The position numbers and the translations under genes were made by a program. DNA of 64,000 nt, from the NCBI RefSeq assembly GCF_000148645.1, contig NC_014541.1:2751139-2815138 (forward strand), written 5' to 3'. Below, one piece after another: positions 4,658-35,469 of the stretch (position 1 is its first letter; the number at the start of each line of letters is the position of its first letter). The notes under the pieces are model-generated. The model was not told the origin of the DNA. It saw nothing but the letters and a program-made list of their open reading frames with translations, and searched no databases. The stretch is from Ferrimonas balearica DSM 9799 (GTDB taxonomy: Bacteria; Pseudomonadota; Gammaproteobacteria; Enterobacterales; Shewanellaceae).

Positions 4658-6655
4658 TTAAAGCGAATAGGTCAGGGTCAGCATCAGCAGGTGGGCGTTG
4701 TAGTTGTGGCCCAGGTCGCCCAGGGTGATAAGCCCGGGGATGCTGTCACTGGCGACATCGGCATAATCGGTGTCGTAGTAGCGTTCGTAGCGGTAATCCA
4801 GGCGCACGCTGGTGCGGGTGGATACCGCGTAATCGGCGTAGGCGCGCACGCTATGGGCCCACTGGAAGTAGTCACCGTAGGGCTGGCCCTCGGACACCTG
4901 GGTGTCGGAGCTGGACTCGGTGTACTGGTAGTCCGCGCCCACGGTCAGGCGGTCGTCCATCAGGCCGCCGTAGCTGGCGCCCACACCGGCGTAGTCGAAC
5001 TGGTCTTCGATGCGGTAGGTCCAGTCGGCGCTGGCGAAGCTCTGGCTGCCCGCCTGGTTGGACTCAATCCACTGCTGACCGGCAAACGCATGCAGGTTCA
5101 GGGCCTCGGTCACGCGGTAGTTGGCGGACAGGTCGTAGCTCAGGTCGTCGGCGTCCAGCAGGCCAATCTCGGACTCGCTGTAGTCGTCCTTGGCGTAGCG
5201 CACGGTGGCGTCCAGGCTCAGCGCCGCGAACGGGCTGTAGCTGGCGTCGAAGCTCAGTTCGGTGCGGTCACGGTCGGCCAGGTAGTACTTGCGCAGCAGG
5301 GTGTTGTCTTCGCTGGAGGTGGCTTCGCTGGCCTGGTAACGGGAGCCGTCACGCTGGCCGTAGCTGGCTTTCAGGCCCAGCTCGAGGTTGTCCATGGCGC
5401 TGACCCGGGTGCGGGCCCAGACGGTGTTGTCCTCGGTGGTTTCCCGCACGCTGTGGCTGCGCTCGGTGCGCTCACCCTGGTAGCCCGCTTCCAGTGCCAC
5501 GCGCTGGGACAGGCGGGTGCTGGCGTCCAGCCCGTAACGGTGACGGGTGATGTCCAGCGGGGTGTTCATCCGCGCGGTGCCGCTGAGGCTGTCGATGGAC
5601 AGGCTCTGGTCGTAGGCGAATACCGGGGTGCGGTTGTCGCGGTCGGAGTAGTCGTACTTGGCGGCCAGACGCACTCCGGAGAGGGCGCTGGTCAGGCGCA
5701 GGTTGGCGCCCTGGGTACGCACTTCGCCGTTGGCGTTGGTGATGCCGTTGGGTGCGCCCAGCGGGTCAACGAAGTCGGTGTCGTTCTGGTACAGCCAGCC
5801 CTGAGTCAGGCGACCGGTCAGGCGGGTTTTGCCCATCCGGTATTGGCCGGACAGGGCCACCAGGTGCGCTTCGTTGTTCGGCGCCAGGGCCTGAACCGCA
5901 CCGCGCTCACCGTTGTAGAGGCCGTCGTAGCTGTTCTCGAACAGCGAGCCCTGGTAGCTGACTGCGGTGTGCCACTGCTCACCGCCCAGCTCAGCGCCGG
6001 CGTTGAAGGTCTGGGTGGTGGTGTCCACCGGCGCAGCGATGTTGACCGGGCTCTTGATGAAGCTGGTGCTGCTGGATTTGAAGCCGGTTTTGGACTCGTG
6101 GTCGTAACGGGCGTAGGTGCGCCAGTTCAGGCCCGCCATCACGTCCTGATAGGCCAGACCCAGGCCGGTGCGCTCACGGCGCTGTTCCAGGTCCACGTCG
6201 ATGGGCTGGTCCAGTGCCACCAGGTTGCGGCCGTCAAAGCCGTACTGGGTTTGCGCGGTGGCGTCGACGGTGCGCAGCTTGGCGTAGTCAAACTGGGCGT
6301 CGAGGTGGTTGTCGCGGTAGCGGGCCTGGCCGTAGCCGCTGCTCATACCGAGCTGGTCGGCGTTGAGGTCGAGGCGGCCCTCTTCGTCACCGTTGAGGGT
6401 GGCGTTGGCGTTGACCCCGGCCACGGCACCGTCGCGGGCGCCGAAGCGGTTGGCGACGTGGTCGTCGTTGCTCTGCACCGCACCGGCGCTGAGGCCGATG
6501 GTGCCGCTGGCCTGCGGCGCGTCACAGCGTTTGCAGGCCCAGCTGCTGGTGTCCAGGCTCTGGGTGTTGGCTTGCGACAGGGCGAAGCTGGCGCCCTGGG
6601 CCGGGGCCATCACGGAGAGGATGGCCAGGGCAGTCATGGAGAGTTGCGCTTTCAT
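4658..6655 (-). CDS. dmsF: MtrB/PioB-family outer-membrane beta-barrel DmsF
   Basis: A 665-residue outer-membrane porin that sheathes the decaheme cytochrome and lets electrons cross the outer membrane. A cleavable signal peptide (ending near APAQGAS) is followed by the CKRC motif near residue 43, a hallmark of MtrB-type barrels. The rest is alternating amphipathic strand sequence rich in Tyr, Asp and Arg, and the chain ends in the hydrophobic-aromatic strand LMLTLTYSL, typical of a barrel end. I chose the ATG at 6655, preceded by AAGGA; a GTG lies one codon upstream. It should start nine or so bases after the true end of dmsE if that gene's frameshift is repaired. Confidence 0.9.
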
Positions 6656-7583
6656 CACGGACGTCCTTATTTCTCAAGCAGGCTGCCAGCGGGTGGTTGG
6701 AACCGTGCACCTGGCTGTGGCAGTTGAGACAGCTCTGGCCGGAGACAAAGGCGTTGCTCTGACCGTCGTAGACGCGGCTGGCGTGACCGTCGCTGGCGTG
6801 ACAGCTCTGACACAGCTGCGGAGCGCGGCGGGTCAGCATGGCGTCGTTGACGCTGCCGTGTACGCTGTGGCAGCTGGCGCAGTTGTCGGTCACCGGCGCG
6901 TGTTCCCACACCACCGGGCCGCGCTTCTCGGCGTGGCAGCTGTAGCAGGTGTCATTGAGGCTGACCTCCTTGAGGGCGGATTCGGTCAGGCTGCCGTGGG
7001 CGCTGTGACAGCTGGTGCAGCTCATGTCGCTGCCGCTGTGTTGGCCGGCCATCGGGTGGGCGGAGCGCTTCATCATGTCCGCCGCTTCGCTGCTGTGGCA
7101 GCTGGTGCAGGTGGCGATTTCGCCCGCGGGGGAGAGCACCGGGTCGTCGGCGGTGTGGATCTGGTGACAATCGGTGCAGGCCACTTCAGAGAAGTCGTGG
7201 CGGCTGCCGTGCCAGTCGCGGCGCCCGGTGTCTTCGTGGCAGCTCAGACACACGGAGTTTTGCAGCTCGGCACTGACGTTGGCCTCGTCACCGAAGTTGA
7301 TCATCGGCTCATTCTTGCCGCGGTGTTTACCCTGGGGGCCGTGGCAGGTTTCACACTGCAGCTTGGCCATCGGGCTGGCGCTGGTGTCGAGACTGCCGTG
7401 GGGGGAGGCAAACAGAGCGGTGACCTGCTCGTCGCGGCCGTGGCACATCAGGCAACCGTCGGTGCCTTTGCCGGAGTACTGTCCCTGCTGGAACTTGTCG
7501 ATAAGCTGGGCCTGAACGTCGTCACTGGCCAGCGACGGTGTCGCACAGAGCAACAGCAGCAATAAAGTAGGAATTCGAGTCAT
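6522..7583 (-). CDS. dmsE: Decaheme c-type cytochrome DmsE (MtrA family), apparent C-terminal frameshift
   Basis: A periplasmic decaheme cytochrome that feeds electrons through DmsF to DmsA. It has a signal peptide ([20 protein letters not shown]) and exactly ten CxxCH motifs, from CLMCH to CLNCH, as in MtrA and DmsE. After HGSNHP near 6691 the reading frame departs from family-like sequence and reads about 55 codons of dmsF DNA out of frame. One extra base at about 6690-6693 would restore the ending AGSLLEK and a stop at 6667, just before dmsF. The functional product probably ends there. All ten hemes lie upstream of the shift, so activity may survive. A real mutation and a sequencing error cannot be told apart here. 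First gene of the operon. Confidence 0.85.
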
Positions 7584-7837
7584 CAGTCATCGCCAGGAGT
7601 GGTGGTGACGATGAAGGTTACTTAGGTGGCATCGTGGGTGATATCAGGCCGAATTCATCAAACGCGCCAGCCTCGAAATCGATTACCGATTCGATCGACA
7701 TTCACGCCAACAGGCTCACACTGAAGGGGCTGAAGTCGGACTTGGTCACGCTGTCGCCGGGACCGGTTGACCTTCACTGCGAAGGCCGTAACACTCCAGC
7801 CCAACTCCCCCACCCAAGTCGAATGGTCTGATACATC

Positions 7838-8791
7838 ATGGAACCGCCGCTGATCATGCGGGCGTCTGTCGCCGAACCGTTTTTCCAGTTGCTGCCGCAA
7901 TTGGGGCTCGACGCGGATGCCCTGTTGGCCCAGTTTGAGATTGAGCGAGGCCAGCCCTTCGTGCCCGCCCGCAAGATCTGGTACCTGATTGACCATATCG
8001 CCCTCTGCCTGGAAGACCCGGATTTCCTGCTTAACCACCGGGACGCGTTCCAGGCCAGGATCGACCAGACCCTGCTCAGGGGCACCGCCAGCCCCTCCCC
8101 CAATCTGCACTGGGCGCTGTCCCAGGCGGTGCAAAACGTCAACACCCGTTTGACCAACGCCCGCTGGTTTCTCGATATTCGTGACGATGGTGTGGTGAAG
8201 ATCGGCAGCCGCAGTCCCTTTATCTTTGACCGGGGCGAGTGGCAGTCCGAACAGGGTTTTTTCTGCTTTGTCCTCGCACTGATTGAGCAAATTGGGCTGA
8301 AGATCAGCGATGTGTTTGAGGCAGGCAGTAAAACGGAACGCGAAAAATGTGACTTCTTTACGGGCCACAACATCCGCTTTATCAGTCATTGTTCCAGCGC
8401 CTACCTCAAGTTCCGGGTCGGCACTGACAGCCTGATTACCCTGCCCGCCCTGTCCGCGCTGGAGCAGGATCAGGCCATTGATCTCTGTGATCTGATCCGG
8501 ACCCTGCTGGCCAATGCGCCGCTGAATGCGCAACCCAGCCTCAGTGATATGGCCAGGGCACTGAACGTGACGCCGCGTACTCTGCAGCGTTACCTGGCTC
8601 AGCAACAGACGCAGTATGGTCAGCTGCGTGATTTGGCCTGGCGCGAAGCCGTGATGCTTCAGCTGATAAAAAGCCGCTCCATTAAGGCCGCCAGTTATGA
8701 CCTGGGTTACCGTAACCTGAGTCAGTTTTATGCCCGCTTCCAGCGCTGTTTTGGCACCACCCCCAAGGCGTATCTCAGCCAGCAAGCCTAG
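7838..8791 (+). CDS. AraC-family transcriptional regulator divergent from dms
   Basis: A 317-residue regulator. The first 200 or so residues look like the arabinose-binding-like sensing domain of the OruR/ArgR-type AraC subgroup. The last 90 form the double helix-turn-helix: first helix region SLSDMARALNVTPRTLQRYL, second around IKAASYDLGYRNLSQFYARF and ending FGTTPKAYL. It is transcribed away from dmsE across a 254-base gap, so it plausibly controls dms and itself. No strong ribosome binding site precedes the ATG at 7838, and an ATG at 7856 is an alternative. The gap has no clear FNR palindrome, only a TTGAT half-site on the dms strand. The ligand is unknown. Confidence 0.82.
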   Translation: MEPPLIMRASVAEPFFQLLPQLGLDADALLAQFEIERGQPFVPARKIWYLIDHIALCLEDPDFLLNHRDAFQARIDQTLLRGTASPSPNLHWALSQAVQNVNTRLTNARWFLDIRDDGVVKIGSRSPFIFDRGEWQSEQGFFCFVLALIEQIGLKISDVFEAGSKTEREKCDFFTGHNIRFISHCSSAYLKFRVGTDSLITLPALSALEQDQAIDLCDLIRTLLANAPLNAQPSLSDMARALNVTPRTLQRYLAQQQTQYGQLRDLAWREAVMLQLIKSRSIKAASYDLGYRNLSQFYARFQRCFGTTPKAYLSQQA

Positions 8792-8859: not shown

Positions 8860-9780
8860 TTATTCAGTGCGGGCAGCAAAGCGCTCCAGGCCCCATACCA
8901 GGCCGATGCCCAACAGGGCGCAGGCGATGGCCATCGGTACCTGAGCCGAAGCCCCAGTCAGGGCTTCGTATTGCCACGGGCTGATCGCCTGCTCCAGCAG
9001 CGGCACCTGTTCACCGCCGGAGTTGGTGCGCCAGGTCAACACCTCTTTCCAGGGCCAGATCTTCTCCAGAGTGCCCAGCATCAGGCCACAGAGGAAGGCC
9101 AGAGTCAGCCCGTGGAAGCGACGCAACAGGAAGCTGAGCAGGTGAGAGAAGCTCAGCAAGCCCAGGGCACAGCCAGTGGCAAAGATGGCAATTACGGTCA
9201 GGTCCAGTCCTTTTACCGCACTCAGTACCGGGCCGTAGAGACCCAACAGCAGCAGGATAAAGGAACCGGAGATCCCCGGCAGGATCATGGCGCAGATCGC
9301 CACCATGCCCCCCAGCAGGAAATTCAGGTAGGTGGCTTCCAGCGCCAGCGGATTGGATACGGTAATCACGTAGGCGAAGGCGAAGCCAGCGGCCGCGGAC
9401 AGCAGGGTGCCGATGCCGTGGCCCTTAATCGACCGCCCGATGTGCACCAGCGAGATCAGGATCAGGCCGAAGAAGAAGCTCCACAGCGGCACCGGGTGGT
9501 GCTCCAGCAGGTAGGTGATGACACGGGCCAGGGTCAGGATGCTGGTGAGGATACCGGTCAGCAGGGTAACCAGGAAGGTGCCGCTGATGTATTCCCAGGC
9601 CGCGGCGAAGCCCTGACGACGCCATACCCCGATCAGACTCGGGTTGATGCGGCGGATGCTCTCCAGCAGGCGGTCATAGATGCCGCTGATAAACGCGATG
9701 GTGCCACCGGACACGCCCGGTACCACGTCGGCGGCCCCCATGGCCACCCCTTTCAAAAACGTTCGAAAATCAATACTCAT
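8860..9780 (-). CDS. popT: DUF368 family undecaprenyl-phosphate translocase (PopT type)
   Basis: A 306-residue polytopic inner-membrane protein of the DUF368 family. The family signature is visible at the N-terminus (KGVAMGAADVVPGVSGGTIA) and repeated in related form mid-protein (MILPGISGSFILLLLGLYG), as expected for an inverted-repeat transporter. DUF368 proteins of Vibrio cholerae and Gram-positive bacteria have been reported to recycle undecaprenyl phosphate across the inner membrane for cell-wall synthesis. I chose the ATG at 9780 (MSIDFRTFLKG) because sequence upstream of it in the open frame does not look like protein of this family. It is monocistronic, with a terminator on each side. 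Confidence 0.85.
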   Translation of the reverse strand: MSIDFRTFLKGVAMGAADVVPGVSGGTIAFISGIYDRLLESIRRINPSLIGVWRRQGFAAAWEYISGTFLVTLLTGILTSILTLARVITYLLEHHPVPLWSFFFGLILISLVHIGRSIKGHGIGTLLSAAAGFAFAYVITVSNPLALEATYLNFLLGGMVAICAMILPGISGSFILLLLGLYGPVLSAVKGLDLTVIAIFATGCALGLLSFSHLLSFLLRRFHGLTLAFLCGLMLGTLEKIWPWKEVLTWRTNSGGEQVPLLEQAISPWQYEALTGASAQVPMAIACALLGIGLVWGLERFAARTE

Positions 9781-9850
9781 GCAAAAAAGCACACTCAGGG
9801 ACAATGCAGTGCAGCGATTATATCGGCTTTTTGTCGAAAGATTGTGGATC

Positions 9851-9878
9851 AAAAAAAAGGGGGGCCATTTGGCCCCCG
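9851..9878 (-). terminator. Rho-independent terminator after the ParA/RHH pair
   Basis: A GGGGGCCAAATGGCCCCC-type hairpin on the minus strand is followed by eight T. It lies about 15 bases after the stop of the small RHH-like gene and closes that transcript. Confidence 0.85.
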
Positions 9879-9892
9879 ATGGTTGGGGAACT

Positions 9893-10228
9893 TCAGGGAG
9901 TGTTACTGCGGAGAAAACCATCCAAATCGCGATTCCAGTCGATCTGCTCCAGCCAGATGCGGATCAGGCGCGACTTGGGAATGCCGGTGTGTTGCGACAA
10001 CAGGTTCAGCCGGGTGATGGACTGTTCCGTCAGGCTGAAGTTGGCCTTTTTACAGCGCGCGCCCTGCTCGGGCCGGACCATGGCCAACGACACCACCTTC
10101 TCCTGCCCGGCACCGTAGGCCACTGCCCCATTGATGAAGGCTTCGACCTGCGCCTCAAGTTCGTCGCCCGGTGGCGAACTGGCTTTACTGGCCGACGGCG
10201 ACGTGCGTTTCAAGTTGAGTAGACTCAT
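9893..10228 (-). CDS. Small ribbon-helix-helix-like protein, partner of the ParA-like ATPase
   Basis: An unrecognised 111-residue protein. The N-terminal third is polar and Ser/Pro/Lys-rich. The C-terminal half (KKANFSLTEQSITRLNLLS, then HTGIPKSRLIRIWLEQI) has the strand-helix-helix pattern of ribbon-helix-helix DNA-binding proteins. Its start lies 44 bases inside the ParA-like gene and has an AGGGGG ribosome binding site, so the two are translationally linked. Type Ib plasmid partition cassettes have this layout: a small ParA followed by a small RHH centromere-binding protein that stimulates the ATPase through its N-terminal tail. A role as ParA partner is inference from size, order and fold pattern. 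Confidence 0.6.
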   Translation of the reverse strand: MSLLNLKRTSPSASKASSPPGDELEAQVEAFINGAVAYGAGQEKVVSLAMVRPEQGARCKKANFSLTEQSITRLNLLSQHTGIPKSRLIRIWLEQIDWNRDLDGFLRSNTP

Positions 10229-10883
10229 GGTCTGCCCCCTGGCCGCGGCACAGCAGCTCGTGAATGATGGTGCGAATTTCGGCGGCGCATTTACCGTCCG
10301 GCTCAGACTCCATCACGGACATGCCGGACTCTTCGCTGTCGTCGTACATGTTGCGGCTGTAGGTGACCGCATCCAGTACCGTCATGTCGTAGGAGCGGCA
10401 CACCTCTTTCGCCTCAAGAATGCGCGGAGCCAGCGACGGCAGCGATGGACACTGGGTAATCACAAACGCCATGTTCATGCGGGGATTGACCATCTTGCAG
10501 GTGGAGACAATGTCTTCCATGTGCTCGACGGTTTTCAGGTCACGCCGCTTGGGTCGCAGCGGCACCAGTACATGGTCGGCGACGGCCATGGAGGAGCGCA
10601 GCGCCAGGTTGTCCTGACCACCGCAATCAATCACCAGGTAGTCATAGCGTTCCCGCAGGCTCAGTAACTCGTTGCGGATTTTTCCGTAGAGTTGGATGCA
10701 GTTGATATGAGGCAGTTGAGGATTGCTGTTTCGTTCCTGAACCCAATCCGAGGTGGTGCGCTGGGGATCACAATCCACCATCAGCACATTGCCTTCCTCT
10801 TCGGTTCTCAGATAAACCGCAATATTTTGCGCCAGACAGCTTTTGCCGCTGCCGCCTTTTTCTCCACCAACAAGGATGATCAT
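10185..10883 (-). CDS. ParA/MinD-like ATPase under a c-di-GMP riboswitch
   Basis: A 232-residue ATPase of the ParA superfamily without an N-terminal DNA-binding domain, as in small type Ib ParAs. The deviant Walker A motif GGEKGGSGKS at residues 6-15 carries the signature lysine. LMVDCDPQRTTSDW gives the switch region, YLVIDCGGQDN the Walker B-like segment, and VLVPLRPKRRDL a later conserved block. I chose the ATG at 10883, just before the P-loop and preceded by GGGAAGGA. The gene overlaps a small RHH-like gene downstream and is preceded by a c-di-GMP-I riboswitch. The cargo is unknown. No replication or conjugation gene is nearby, so this looks like a chromosomal orphan cassette. Confidence 0.82.
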   Translation of the reverse strand: MIILVGGEKGGSGKSCLAQNIAVYLRTEEEGNVLMVDCDPQRTTSDWVQERNSNPQLPHINCIQLYGKIRNELLSLRERYDYLVIDCGGQDNLALRSSMAVADHVLVPLRPKRRDLKTVEHMEDIVSTCKMVNPRMNMAFVITQCPSLPSLAPRILEAKEVCRSYDMTVLDAVTYSRNMYDDSEESGMSVMESEPDGKCAAEIRTIIHELLCRGQGADHESTQLETHVAVGQ

Positions 10884-10892
10884 GATCGATTC

Positions 10893-10926
10893 CTTCCCTG
10901 ATTGTCCGAATGAGAGGTCTGGGAAG
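10893..10926 (-). promoter_or_regulatory. Possible Shine-Dalgarno-sequestering hairpin between riboswitch and ParA-like gene
   Basis: On the minus strand CTTCCC (10926-10921) is complementary to GGGAAG (10898-10893), which is part of the ribosome binding site of the ParA-like gene; the loop is 22 bases. No hairpin followed by a T-run is seen between the aptamer and the start codon. Control at translation is therefore more likely than termination. Pairing was found by eye; energies were not calculated. Confidence 0.4.
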
Positions 10927-10973
10927 ACCACGCCCTGCACGGAAAAAGGAGGTGCGATCACAGGAGGGATCAT

Positions 10974-11068
10974 TACACTCGGCAGCCCCGCTATCGATAG
11001 CGTTCACCTTAGACCGGAGGCTTTGCGTCCCAGGCTTTCACCTGGTTTGCCTTTTTCGTCGTGCTTTC
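10974..11068 (-). ncRNA. Cyclic-di-GMP-I riboswitch (GEMM-I) upstream of the ParA-like gene
   Basis: Read on the minus strand, the interval has the GEMM-I blocks in order: GGCAAACC, a stem with a GAAA-type loop (CCAGG-TGAAAG-CCTGG), GGGACGCAAAGCCTCCGG, TCTAAGG, and the variable helix closing with TAGCGGGG-CTGCC. The GNRA loop and its receptor, the GACGCAAAGCC core and the GCGGGG return strand are those of the class I c-di-GMP aptamer. A -10-like TATGAT lies at 11077-11072, a few bases upstream of the aptamer, so the transcript probably begins with the riboswitch. About 90 bases separate the aptamer from the ATG at 10883. Whether ligand turns expression on or off cannot be read from sequence. 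Confidence 0.9.
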
Positions 11069-11143
11069 CCAATCATAGCCAATGCGTTAGCGGATACCAG
11101 ATCATTTTTCACACATTTCACCAACTGACTCACAACGAAGTAA

Positions 11144-11170
11144 CAAAAAAGGGCCTTTACGGCCCCTTTT
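11144..11170 (-). terminator. Rho-independent terminator after the oxygenase gene
   Basis: A GGGGCCGTAAAGGCCC hairpin on the minus strand with a T-run on each side lies just past the stop of the IPNS-like oxygenase. It separates that gene from the riboswitch-controlled ParA-like transcript. Confidence 0.8.
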
Positions 11171-11173
11171 TAC

Positions 11174-12013
11174 TCAGATAACGCCCAGTTCTCTGAGCCG
11201 TTCCATCAGATAGCTGTGCGCGGTATGGCGCTCAGACAACACCACCTCAGGACGGGGATGCAAAAACAGCGGCAACGAGATGCGCGACTGGTTGGCTGCC
11301 TCTCCCTCCGGGTTCACCACGCGATGGGTGGTGGAGGGAAAATACCCCCCGGAGGCTTCCTGCAGCATGTCACCGATATTGACAATCAGGGTGCCAAAAT
11401 CGCACGGCACGTCCAGCCATTGGCCGTCCCGGCCCTTGACCTGCAAACCCCGGGCATTGGCAGCGGGCAGGATGGTCAGCAGGTTGATGTCTTCATGGGC
11501 GGCAGCACGGATGGCGCCTGCGGCTTCATCGCCGTTCAGTGGCGGATAGTGCAGCACCCGCAACAGCGACTTTTCGCTGCCCTCAATCATGTTGGGCAAC
11601 GGCTCCGCGTAGCCGGAGGCCACGTTATCCGGCCCCAGCTGCTGAACCCAGCCCAGCAGCTCTGCGGCCAAGGTGGTGGCCTGACCGTAGTAGTCCGCCA
11701 GGTCGGCTTTGTGCTCGGCCGGGCACTGGCCCCAGGGGTAGTAGTGAAAATACTCTTTCAGGTCTTTTACGCTGTGGCCTTTGGCCACTTCCGAGACAGA
11801 CGCCGGAAAGAAACCGTCCTGAGTGTCGCGGTTAAAGTGGTAGCGGGTTTTATTTTCGCCATCAAAGAAGCCTTGCCAGTCGCGGTAGATCCGCTCAACC
11901 AGCTGCTCAGGGATGGGGTGATTTTTGAGGACGCCAAAGCCGGTTTGGCGCAGGGATTCGACGAATTGAGCCGGCGCATCAGGCGCGCGGTAATCCACGG
12001 CGGTTAGAGTCAT
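11174..12013 (-). CDS. Isopenicillin N synthase-like 2-oxoglutarate/Fe(II) oxygenase
   Basis: A 279-residue non-heme iron oxygenase. The N-terminal DIOX_N-type region (FVESLRQTGFGVLKNHPIP) is followed by the catalytic jelly roll. The iron ligands are visible as His-x-Asp in AAHEDINLLTIL and a distal His in STTHRVVNP, and the co-substrate-binding arginine pattern is in SRISLPLFLHP. In bacteria this family is often annotated as isopenicillin N synthase family, but most members do not make penicillin and their substrates are unknown. No secondary-metabolism genes adjoin it. It is followed by its own terminator. Confidence 0.83.
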   Translation of the reverse strand: MTLTAVDYRAPDAPAQFVESLRQTGFGVLKNHPIPEQLVERIYRDWQGFFDGENKTRYHFNRDTQDGFFPASVSEVAKGHSVKDLKEYFHYYPWGQCPAEHKADLADYYGQATTLAAELLGWVQQLGPDNVASGYAEPLPNMIEGSEKSLLRVLHYPPLNGDEAAGAIRAAAHEDINLLTILPAANARGLQVKGRDGQWLDVPCDFGTLIVNIGDMLQEASGGYFPSTTHRVVNPEGEAANQSRISLPLFLHPRPEVVLSERHTAHSYLMERLRELGVI

Positions 12014-32675: not shown

Positions 32676-32766
32676 GGTCACTGTGATAAAGGCAAACCGG
32701 TCGAAAGGCCGGGACGCAAAGCCTCCGGTCTAAGGGCATCGCCTAAGATAGCGGGGATACCATATT
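32676..32766 (+). ncRNA. Cyclic-di-GMP-I riboswitch (GEMM-I) upstream of the chitinase
   Basis: The GEMM-I blocks occur in order: GGTCAC, GGCAAACC, a GAAA-capped stem (CCGG-TCGAAAG-GCCGG), GGGACGCAAAGCCTCCGG, TCTAAGG, and the closing strand TAGCGGGG-ATACC. The ends resemble the well-studied Vibrio cholerae Vc aptamer, which also starts GGTCAC and ends TAGCGGGGTTACC. The core is identical over about 25 bases to the second copy in this window on the minus strand at 10974-11068. GEMM elements upstream of chitin-related genes are established in Vibrio. It sits 90 bases before the chitinase start codon. Confidence 0.92.
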
Positions 32767-32767
32767 T

Positions 32768-35469
<2,702 letters not shown>

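Follow-up and report, generated by a model that had tools for sequence, protein, structure and literature searches.

Cassettes of the ParA type are usually regarded as constitutive segregation machines, and in the type Ib pair ParF/ParG of TP228 a small ParA is followed downstream by an RHH partner with a flexible N-terminus. BcsQ/YhjQ, of the ParA/MinD superfamily, belong to a c-di-GMP-related pathway, MinD/ParA proteins at the poles provide a precedent for organelle positioning, and Vc1 and Vc2 are c-di-GMP-I riboswitches of Vibrio cholerae. Myxococcus CdbA is a 67 aa RHH c-di-GMP receptor acting in chromosome organisation; its gene shares an operon with the paralogue cdbB, and no CdbA homologues were found outside the Myxococcales according to the part of that paper drawn on here (PMC7156744). 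CdbS is a PilZ protein likewise connected with c-di-GMP and chromosome organisation in Myxococcus (PMC10313047).

The locus described here lies within a stretch of 64,000 nucleotides of the Ferrimonas balearica DSM 9799 chromosome (hereafter the window), and from its sequence and relatives it is probably a chromosomal ParA/RHH cassette, of type-Ib-like partition descent or shared ancestry, that has been put under c-di-GMP control. It is similar to TP228 ParF/ParG in having a small ParA with a downstream RHH partner, and TP228 ParA is its best solved-fold match, but the cassette is chromosomal, no adjacent centromere-like repeats were found, and a c-di-GMP aptamer or, in relatives, a PilZ gene is attached. 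The pair of Acinetobacter pAS80-1 is alike in its ParA (54% identity) and in its partner, which begins MAGLSGLKKK and has an FIxGA motif, but it is on a plasmid beside repM, and our aptamer model and an upstream PilZ search found nothing there. The aptamer is of the same class as Vc1 and Vc2, and the Ferrimonas genome also has one before a GbpA-like gene, whereas the target here is a ParA/RHH operon. BcsQ/YhjQ of cellulose operons share the superfamily, although the ParA here scores far below BcsQ cut-offs. The Myxococcus proteins CdbA and CdbS similarly combine an RHH protein, a PilZ protein and c-di-GMP, but no ParA partner appears in the part of the CdbA paper drawn on here (PMC7156744). 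In the portions of the openly licensed literature that were searched, no ParA/RHH cassette with a c-di-GMP riboswitch or PilZ gene was found described.

Organisation of the ParA/RHH operon

The operon is read from the minus strand, with the following features (window coordinates):

11072-11077, minus: putative -10 element TATGAT, directly 5' of the aptamer (by eye)
11060-10977, minus: c-di-GMP-I riboswitch aptamer at the operon 5' end (cmscan, RF03167 and RF01051)
10942-10949, minus: CCTTTTTC leader element, putative anti-aptamer strand, complementary to the aptamer 5' strand GAAAAAGG (11057-11050)
10891-10898, minus: Shine-Dalgarno-like GGGAAGGA before parA (sequence)
10883-10185, minus: parA, encoding a small deviant-Walker ATPase of 232 aa (Pfam/NCBIfam, predicted structure)
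10228-9893, minus: gene for the RHH partner, 111 aa (Pfam RHH_3, alignment, CopG profile match, model)
9877-9860, minus: terminator-like hairpin and T run at the operon end (terminator scan)

An earlier note on this DNA had proposed a small ParA-type ATPase with an overlapping RHH-like protein in the layout of a type Ib cassette, and both the proteins and the layout proved to be real. ParA scores 64.9 bits against PF13614 (cut-off 27), with 41.9 bits for MipZ and 38.3 for CbiA; it carries KGGSGKS near the N-terminus and is too short for an N-terminal DNA-binding domain, so that it has the small size, deviant Walker A motif and lack of an N-terminal HTH that characterise type Ib ParAs. An alternative in-frame ATG at 10973 would give a protein of 262 aa; GGGAAGGA stands before the ATG at 10883. 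The best NCBIfam model is ParA_partition NF041546 (140.8 bits, under its cut-off of 180), and the structural model (mean pLDDT 83) has the TP228 ParA-ParB complex as its nearest solved fold. The note contrasted the pair with the BcsQ relatives of cellulose operons, of which it saw none here, and ParA scores far below the cut-offs of both BcsQ models, TIGR03371 (38.3 bits, cut-off 157.85) and PF06564 (15.4 bits, cut-off 21.3), and on these scores we rejected a link to cellulose synthesis.

The RHH gene overlaps parA by 44 nt on the same strand, and thus provides the adjacent downstream RHH partner of a type Ib cassette. Its product scores 24.9 bits against PF12651 RHH_3 (cut-off 21.6); a single-sequence search of solved structures gave no match, and a profile of 44 RHH homologues matches CopG with an E value of 3.8e-5. 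Across the 44 aligned sequences the protein consists of an MSLxxLKK N-terminal motif, an FIxxAxxYAxG helix and, after a variable-length linker, the RHH domain, with M1, L6, F31, I32, A35, G41, S86 and R90 among the invariant positions. The AlphaFold model (mean pLDDT 77, pTM 0.44) has a low-confidence N-terminus and helices at 21-39, 68-81 and 85-95; its best fold match is CopG, a statistically weak one (E 1.1, rmsd 1.2 over 35 columns). Homology with CdbA was considered but set aside, the Foldseek match (E 8.1, 8% identity, from the model with this pTM) showing no more than generic RHH similarity. ParA is the better conserved of the two proteins, with a mean column identity of 78% (29 sequences) and an invariant deviant Walker motif, compared with 33% (44 sequences) for the RHH partner.

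As the earlier note stated, the cassette lies among housekeeping genes with no replication or transfer gene among its neighbours, a judgement made partly by eye. Adjacent genes at 4.270-4.272 Mb of this genome encode a separate ParA and ParB; the partner in the cassette is an RHH protein and not a member of the ParB family, which sets the cassette apart from a canonical chromosomal ParABS system. No convincing centromere-like repeats are present in 9740-11260: a repeat search there gave no more than two inverted pairs and three direct repeats of two copies each, which are short or weak. Elsewhere in the window, 6522-7583 and 4658-6658 (minus) contain multihaem cytochrome and MtrB/PioB porin genes; the cytochrome frame extends about 137 nt into the porin frame and has an odd C-terminus, and a frameshift is possible.

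The closest plasmid ParAs are those of Acinetobacter plasmids, at 54% identity, and in the one plasmid opened parA adjoins repM; the Acinetobacter plasmid partner matches the RHH profile (E 1.1e-8). Because this nearest plasmid relative combines that level of ParA identity with the same partner N-terminal motif and a position beside repM, it suggests that the ParA/RHH cassette originated as a partition system. The cassette resembles type Ib partition, and we do not claim membership because no centromere was found. ParA also matches 124 phage records, the best at 41% identity. When viral contigs were scanned with two peptide patterns from ParA, no relative could be confirmed, and a search with just the RHH protein as query gave no plasmid match.

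The c-di-GMP-I aptamer and its leader

The aptamer that the earlier note placed at the 5' end of the transcript was borne out by Infernal and Rfam. It matches RF03167 (c-di-GMP-I-GGC) over the full length of the model at 72.4 bits (E 3.2e-15, gathering score 59), and in a whole-genome search it matches RF01051 over positions 1-87 at 78.3 bits, above the gathering score of 35 for membership of that covariance model; the same RF01051 search matched 0 of 14 control genomes. Its core reads GACGCAAA and not the GACGCGAA of the printed RF03167 consensus, which we take to be what the name of the GGC variant refers to, and for that reason the aptamer is best read as ordinary c-di-GMP-I despite its score with RF03167. 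Our own covariance model gives it 89.5 bits, the window sequence being within the training set of that model. The cassette end proposed in the earlier note, 11068, lies 8 nt beyond the aptamer. The TATGAT block is also present in L034 and L036, and L035 has TATGCT; a scan for sigma-70 promoters gave no match in 9750-11250.

The RF01051 search of the 4.28 Mb chromosome returned three aptamers in total, the parA-linked one included, and the Rfam scan of the window returned two c-di-GMP-I aptamers. The two that are not linked to parA are:

32681-32764, plus: second c-di-GMP-I aptamer of the window (81.9 bits), with ORF 32857-35469 downstream
L002 1501-1594 (G000:C1:739797-739890): third aptamer of the genome (RF01051), upstream of ORF L002 1646-3013

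Both are upstream of chitin-degradation genes, ORF 32857-35469 encoding a ChiA-like chitinase (GH18) that also carries PKD and CBM5/12 domains and ORF L002 1646-3013 a GbpA-like LPMO_10 protein. This arrangement suggests a chitin-surface regulon under c-di-GMP, and because the other two aptamers head the chitinase and LPMO genes, the ParA/RHH cassette may be part of a surface-colonisation regulon.

The chitin genes also bear on a different explanation, in which the RHH protein is a transcription regulator with a regulon of its own, ParA tunes or sequesters it, nothing is positioned, and c-di-GMP sets the level of the regulator through the riboswitch or its activity through PilZ. A surface-life regulon is plausible given what the other two aptamers head, and an RHH domain closest to CopG and the lack of adjacent centromere repeats would both suit such a regulator. 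It is harder to reconcile with ParA being the better conserved partner with an invariant deviant Walker motif, and it does not predict diverged ParA loci without a detectable partner, some of which exist (see below). We regard this explanation as rather unlikely, and prefer the reading of a partition-like cassette brought under c-di-GMP control.

The aptamer and the parA start are separated by 93 nt. A CTTTTT[CT] sequence occurs between aptamer and start codon in all 29 distinct riboswitch leaders, compared with 1 of 39 PilZ-type and 1 of 56 other upstream regions, an uneven comparison that favours the riboswitch leaders in that the entire aptamer-ATG stretch was set against a fixed 120 nt elsewhere. 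In the window leader the putative anti-aptamer helix has 8 bp, and 2% of 300 shuffles are as good; the helix is better than shuffles at the 5% level in 12 of the 29 leaders, and covariation support is absent because the helix core is nearly invariant. The folding ensemble of the window leader favours pairing of the U-rich element with GAAAAAGG (6.35 of 7 positions), whereas that of many other leaders does not. A terminator scan found no terminator-like site on the operon strand between aptamer and parA in the window leader. Given that the U-rich element can pair with GAAAAAGG and that the window leader has no terminator-like site, we infer that riboswitch control probably acts after transcription starts. 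Shine-Dalgarno accessibility did not shift consistently when the leaders were folded (14 of 29). An ON/OFF call from pairing of the U-rich element with the Shine-Dalgarno sequence, an idea formed by eye, was abandoned when partition-function folding favoured neither direction.

Sensors beside related parA genes

ParA has a match at E<=1e-20 in 59 of 295 genomes of the same GTDB order; in a search of 369 genomes drawn from across the class, no match outside the order exceeded 41% identity. A contig scan with patterns from the window protein gave 59 loci, from Alteromonadales, unclassified or uncultured bacteria and one Marinobacter; this last (L034, named Marinobacter nauticus DP3N21-5) is a Ferrimonas-like locus with 95% ParA identity and window-like neighbours, and is probably mislabelled or mixed. 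Together with the window, 80 stretches that we selected from ParA matches in same-order genomes, one plasmid and one phage, these make up 142 loci, which include some that are not independent (the same ParA in L118 and L061, L106 and L085, and L152 and L088), two cut at contig ends (L062, L191) and one that stops before the partner (L079). An RHH partner is present downstream of parA in 124 of the 142, as judged by a profile whose source sequences were clear partners from the very loci that were searched with it. Among the 18 loci with no detected partner, at least 10 have distant or strongly diverged ParAs, and three PilZ-type loci at 69% (L098, L170, L180) also belong to this group. Four loci (L110, L121, L122, L124) have a diverged ParA (49-53%) with neither a detectable RHH partner nor an upstream sensor.

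With Rfam alone, 7 of the 17 loci searched showed an aptamer in front of parA. Our own covariance model, trained on 15 aptamers of which 12 came from these loci, placed a riboswitch immediately before parA at 29 of the 59 contig-scan loci (12 in the training set and 17 outside it) and in 2 of 40 additional stretches, one of which (L118) repeats L061; in 42 further stretches it found no aptamer beyond one chance-level match. Every aptamer is on the parA strand, and in the 29 leaders measured the distance from the conserved aptamer start to the ATG is 166-260 nt. A riboswitch is beside parA in 32 of the 142 loci, and 26 of the 59 contig-scan loci have neither sensor upstream. A whole-genome search of 58 genomes found at least one aptamer in 41, and at parA in only three (G000, G224, G292). 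The recurrence upstream of related parA genes on which the earlier note's proposal depended was therefore seen in the contig-scan loci, and the co-conservation of riboswitch, ParA and RHH that it suggested testing holds in part: the combination recurs in Ferrimonas and in Alteromonadaceae, while Shewanella has ParA and RHH without the riboswitch. In the one other sampled genome of this genus, ParA finds no match at E<=1e-20, and homologues of the two genes flanking the cassette lie more than 1 Mb apart.

A PilZ-domain gene lies directly upstream of parA in 40 of the 142 loci (median gap 88 nt), and PilZ and riboswitch occur together in none of the 142. PF07238 is over its cut-off in the three of three proteins scanned, and among 39 distinct sequences RxxxR is present in 39, [DN]x[SA]xxG in 37 and the strict [DN]xSxxG in 23, the Shewanella-type motif often having Ala instead of Ser. 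Searching 14 genomes for this PilZ subfamily, with one PilZ protein as query, gave a single match, located at parA, in each of six PilZ-type genomes and none in the eight others; the window genome has six PilZ-domain matches, all of other kinds than the parA-linked subfamily. PilZ, parA and RHH genes are kept together in varied surroundings (ftsN/hslV, radC/mutM and suhB-like/psiE-like, where the names ftsN and radC are backed by model scores over cut-off and the others were assigned by eye or below cut-off). Two copies of the cassette are present in 17 of the 20 Shewanella-type genomes with a ParA match; 18 copies are PilZ-type, all 19 of the second copies have neither sensor, and the two kinds form separate groups. 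In L123 and L163 a PilZ gene is retained although ParA has diverged strongly (48% and 53%) and no RHH partner is detectable, and the L163 PilZ has no [DN]x[SA]xxG motif.

A GGDEF-like gene is the next gene downstream in 38 of 100 loci (phmmer), and Pfam, run on one of these genes, recognises GGDEF and TPR domains; this neighbour represents a single local context and may be due to chance. In L086 the cassette is closely followed, at 4899-8363, by genes for XrtA/PEP-CTERM regulators, one PrsR-like and one PrsK-like and each over its cut-off, and other Alteromonas-type loci contain genes of the same blastp clusters; a link to exopolysaccharide was set aside, this also being a single local context. 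The same surroundings bear on whether ParA positions a surface organelle, in the manner of BcsQ, FlhG or ParC, with the RHH-like partner serving as a protein adaptor and not as a DNA binder. The c-di-GMP wiring would suit such a role, and an MCP-like gene is found 1.9-4.0 kb upstream in 5 of 100 loci; against this, no flagellar, pilus or cellulose gene was recognised in the part of the neighbourhoods scanned and the partner has a CopG-like RHH domain, and we consider organelle positioning very improbable.

For a ParA tree the 142 loci were reduced to 124 rows by dropping proteins shorter than 190 aa or less than 45% identical and merging identical ones, with the plasmid row as outgroup. All 38 PilZ-type rows group in a single clade (aLRT 91). 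The riboswitch rows, 29 in number, all fall inside one 51-row clade (aLRT 94) alongside 22 rows without a riboswitch; 61 of the 121 inner branches are weak, and neither of these two clades is starred. The remaining 57 rows have neither sensor upstream, and include the plasmid outgroup and L062, which is cut off there. By a quick method the three sensor states need 8 changes on the tree, against 54.8 in shuffles, and the riboswitch label needs 7. In a starred clade of 11 Alteromonas rows the riboswitch has been lost or was never present. The Ferrimonas ParA groups with Alteromonadaceae and not with Shewanella, despite the GTDB family common to the window genome and the Shewanella-type genomes; this grouping, and the same-genus genome without ParA, indicate that the riboswitch-parA-RHH unit probably moved horizontally.

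That the cassette may move, as the grouping with Alteromonadaceae implies, would also be expected if it were a plasmid-type partition cassette of the ordinary kind that had integrated and persisted through drift or because it stabilises the region around it, with its ties to riboswitch and PilZ incidental. Outside the clade, the ParAs most closely related to it come from plasmids and phages, and ParA_partition is its best NCBIfam model, though below cut-off. Yet the PilZ subfamily is tied one-to-one to parA in six of six genomes and in different surroundings, the riboswitch is retained in many loci, replication or transfer genes (partly by eye) and centromere-like repeats were not seen at the locus, the two-pattern scan of viral contigs confirmed no relative, and the RHH query matched no plasmid; we therefore think incidental association improbable.

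Because riboswitch, PilZ and GGDEF-like genes all recur beside ParA/RHH, comparison of these loci indicates that, on the chromosomes of marine bacteria, a single kind of ParA/RHH pair has time and again RNA or genes of c-di-GMP signalling attached to it. The mutually exclusive attachment of two kinds of sensor is, as we read the loci, the strongest argument that c-di-GMP control matters, and the 57 of 124 rows with neither sensor are the strongest argument against its being essential.

Proposed role of the c-di-GMP-controlled pair

In the arrangement that we favour, a partition-like pair under c-di-GMP control, binding of c-di-GMP to the aptamer would alter the leader RNA at GAAAAAGG and CCUUUUUC and change the production of both the ParA and RHH proteins, the switch acting through pairing of the U-rich element with the aptamer 5' strand. 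ParA-ATP would bind the nucleoid, an RHH dimer would bind one or more specific DNA sites and would contact ParA via its conserved N-terminal motif, and together the two proteins would position a chromosomal locus, or control access to it, when the cell changes from a motile to a surface-attached life or back. Where a PilZ gene takes the place of the riboswitch, control of this pair would lie with a c-di-GMP-binding protein and not at the RNA level. More specifically, we tentatively propose, as a possibility that could well prove wrong, that c-di-GMP decides when the ParA/RHH pair binds or moves its locus, with the sensor swapped between aptamer and PilZ and with some Alteromonas adding a downstream diguanylate cyclase.

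If this is correct, the Shewanella-type genomes with PilZ-linked and unlinked copies in the same cell would offer a ready internal control, and the family would represent a rare natural case in which sensing of one ligand by RNA and by protein is interchanged on a single effector. A chromosomal ParA wired to c-di-GMP through two independent kinds of sensor would tie the positioning of DNA or other cargo to the decision between motile and sessile life.
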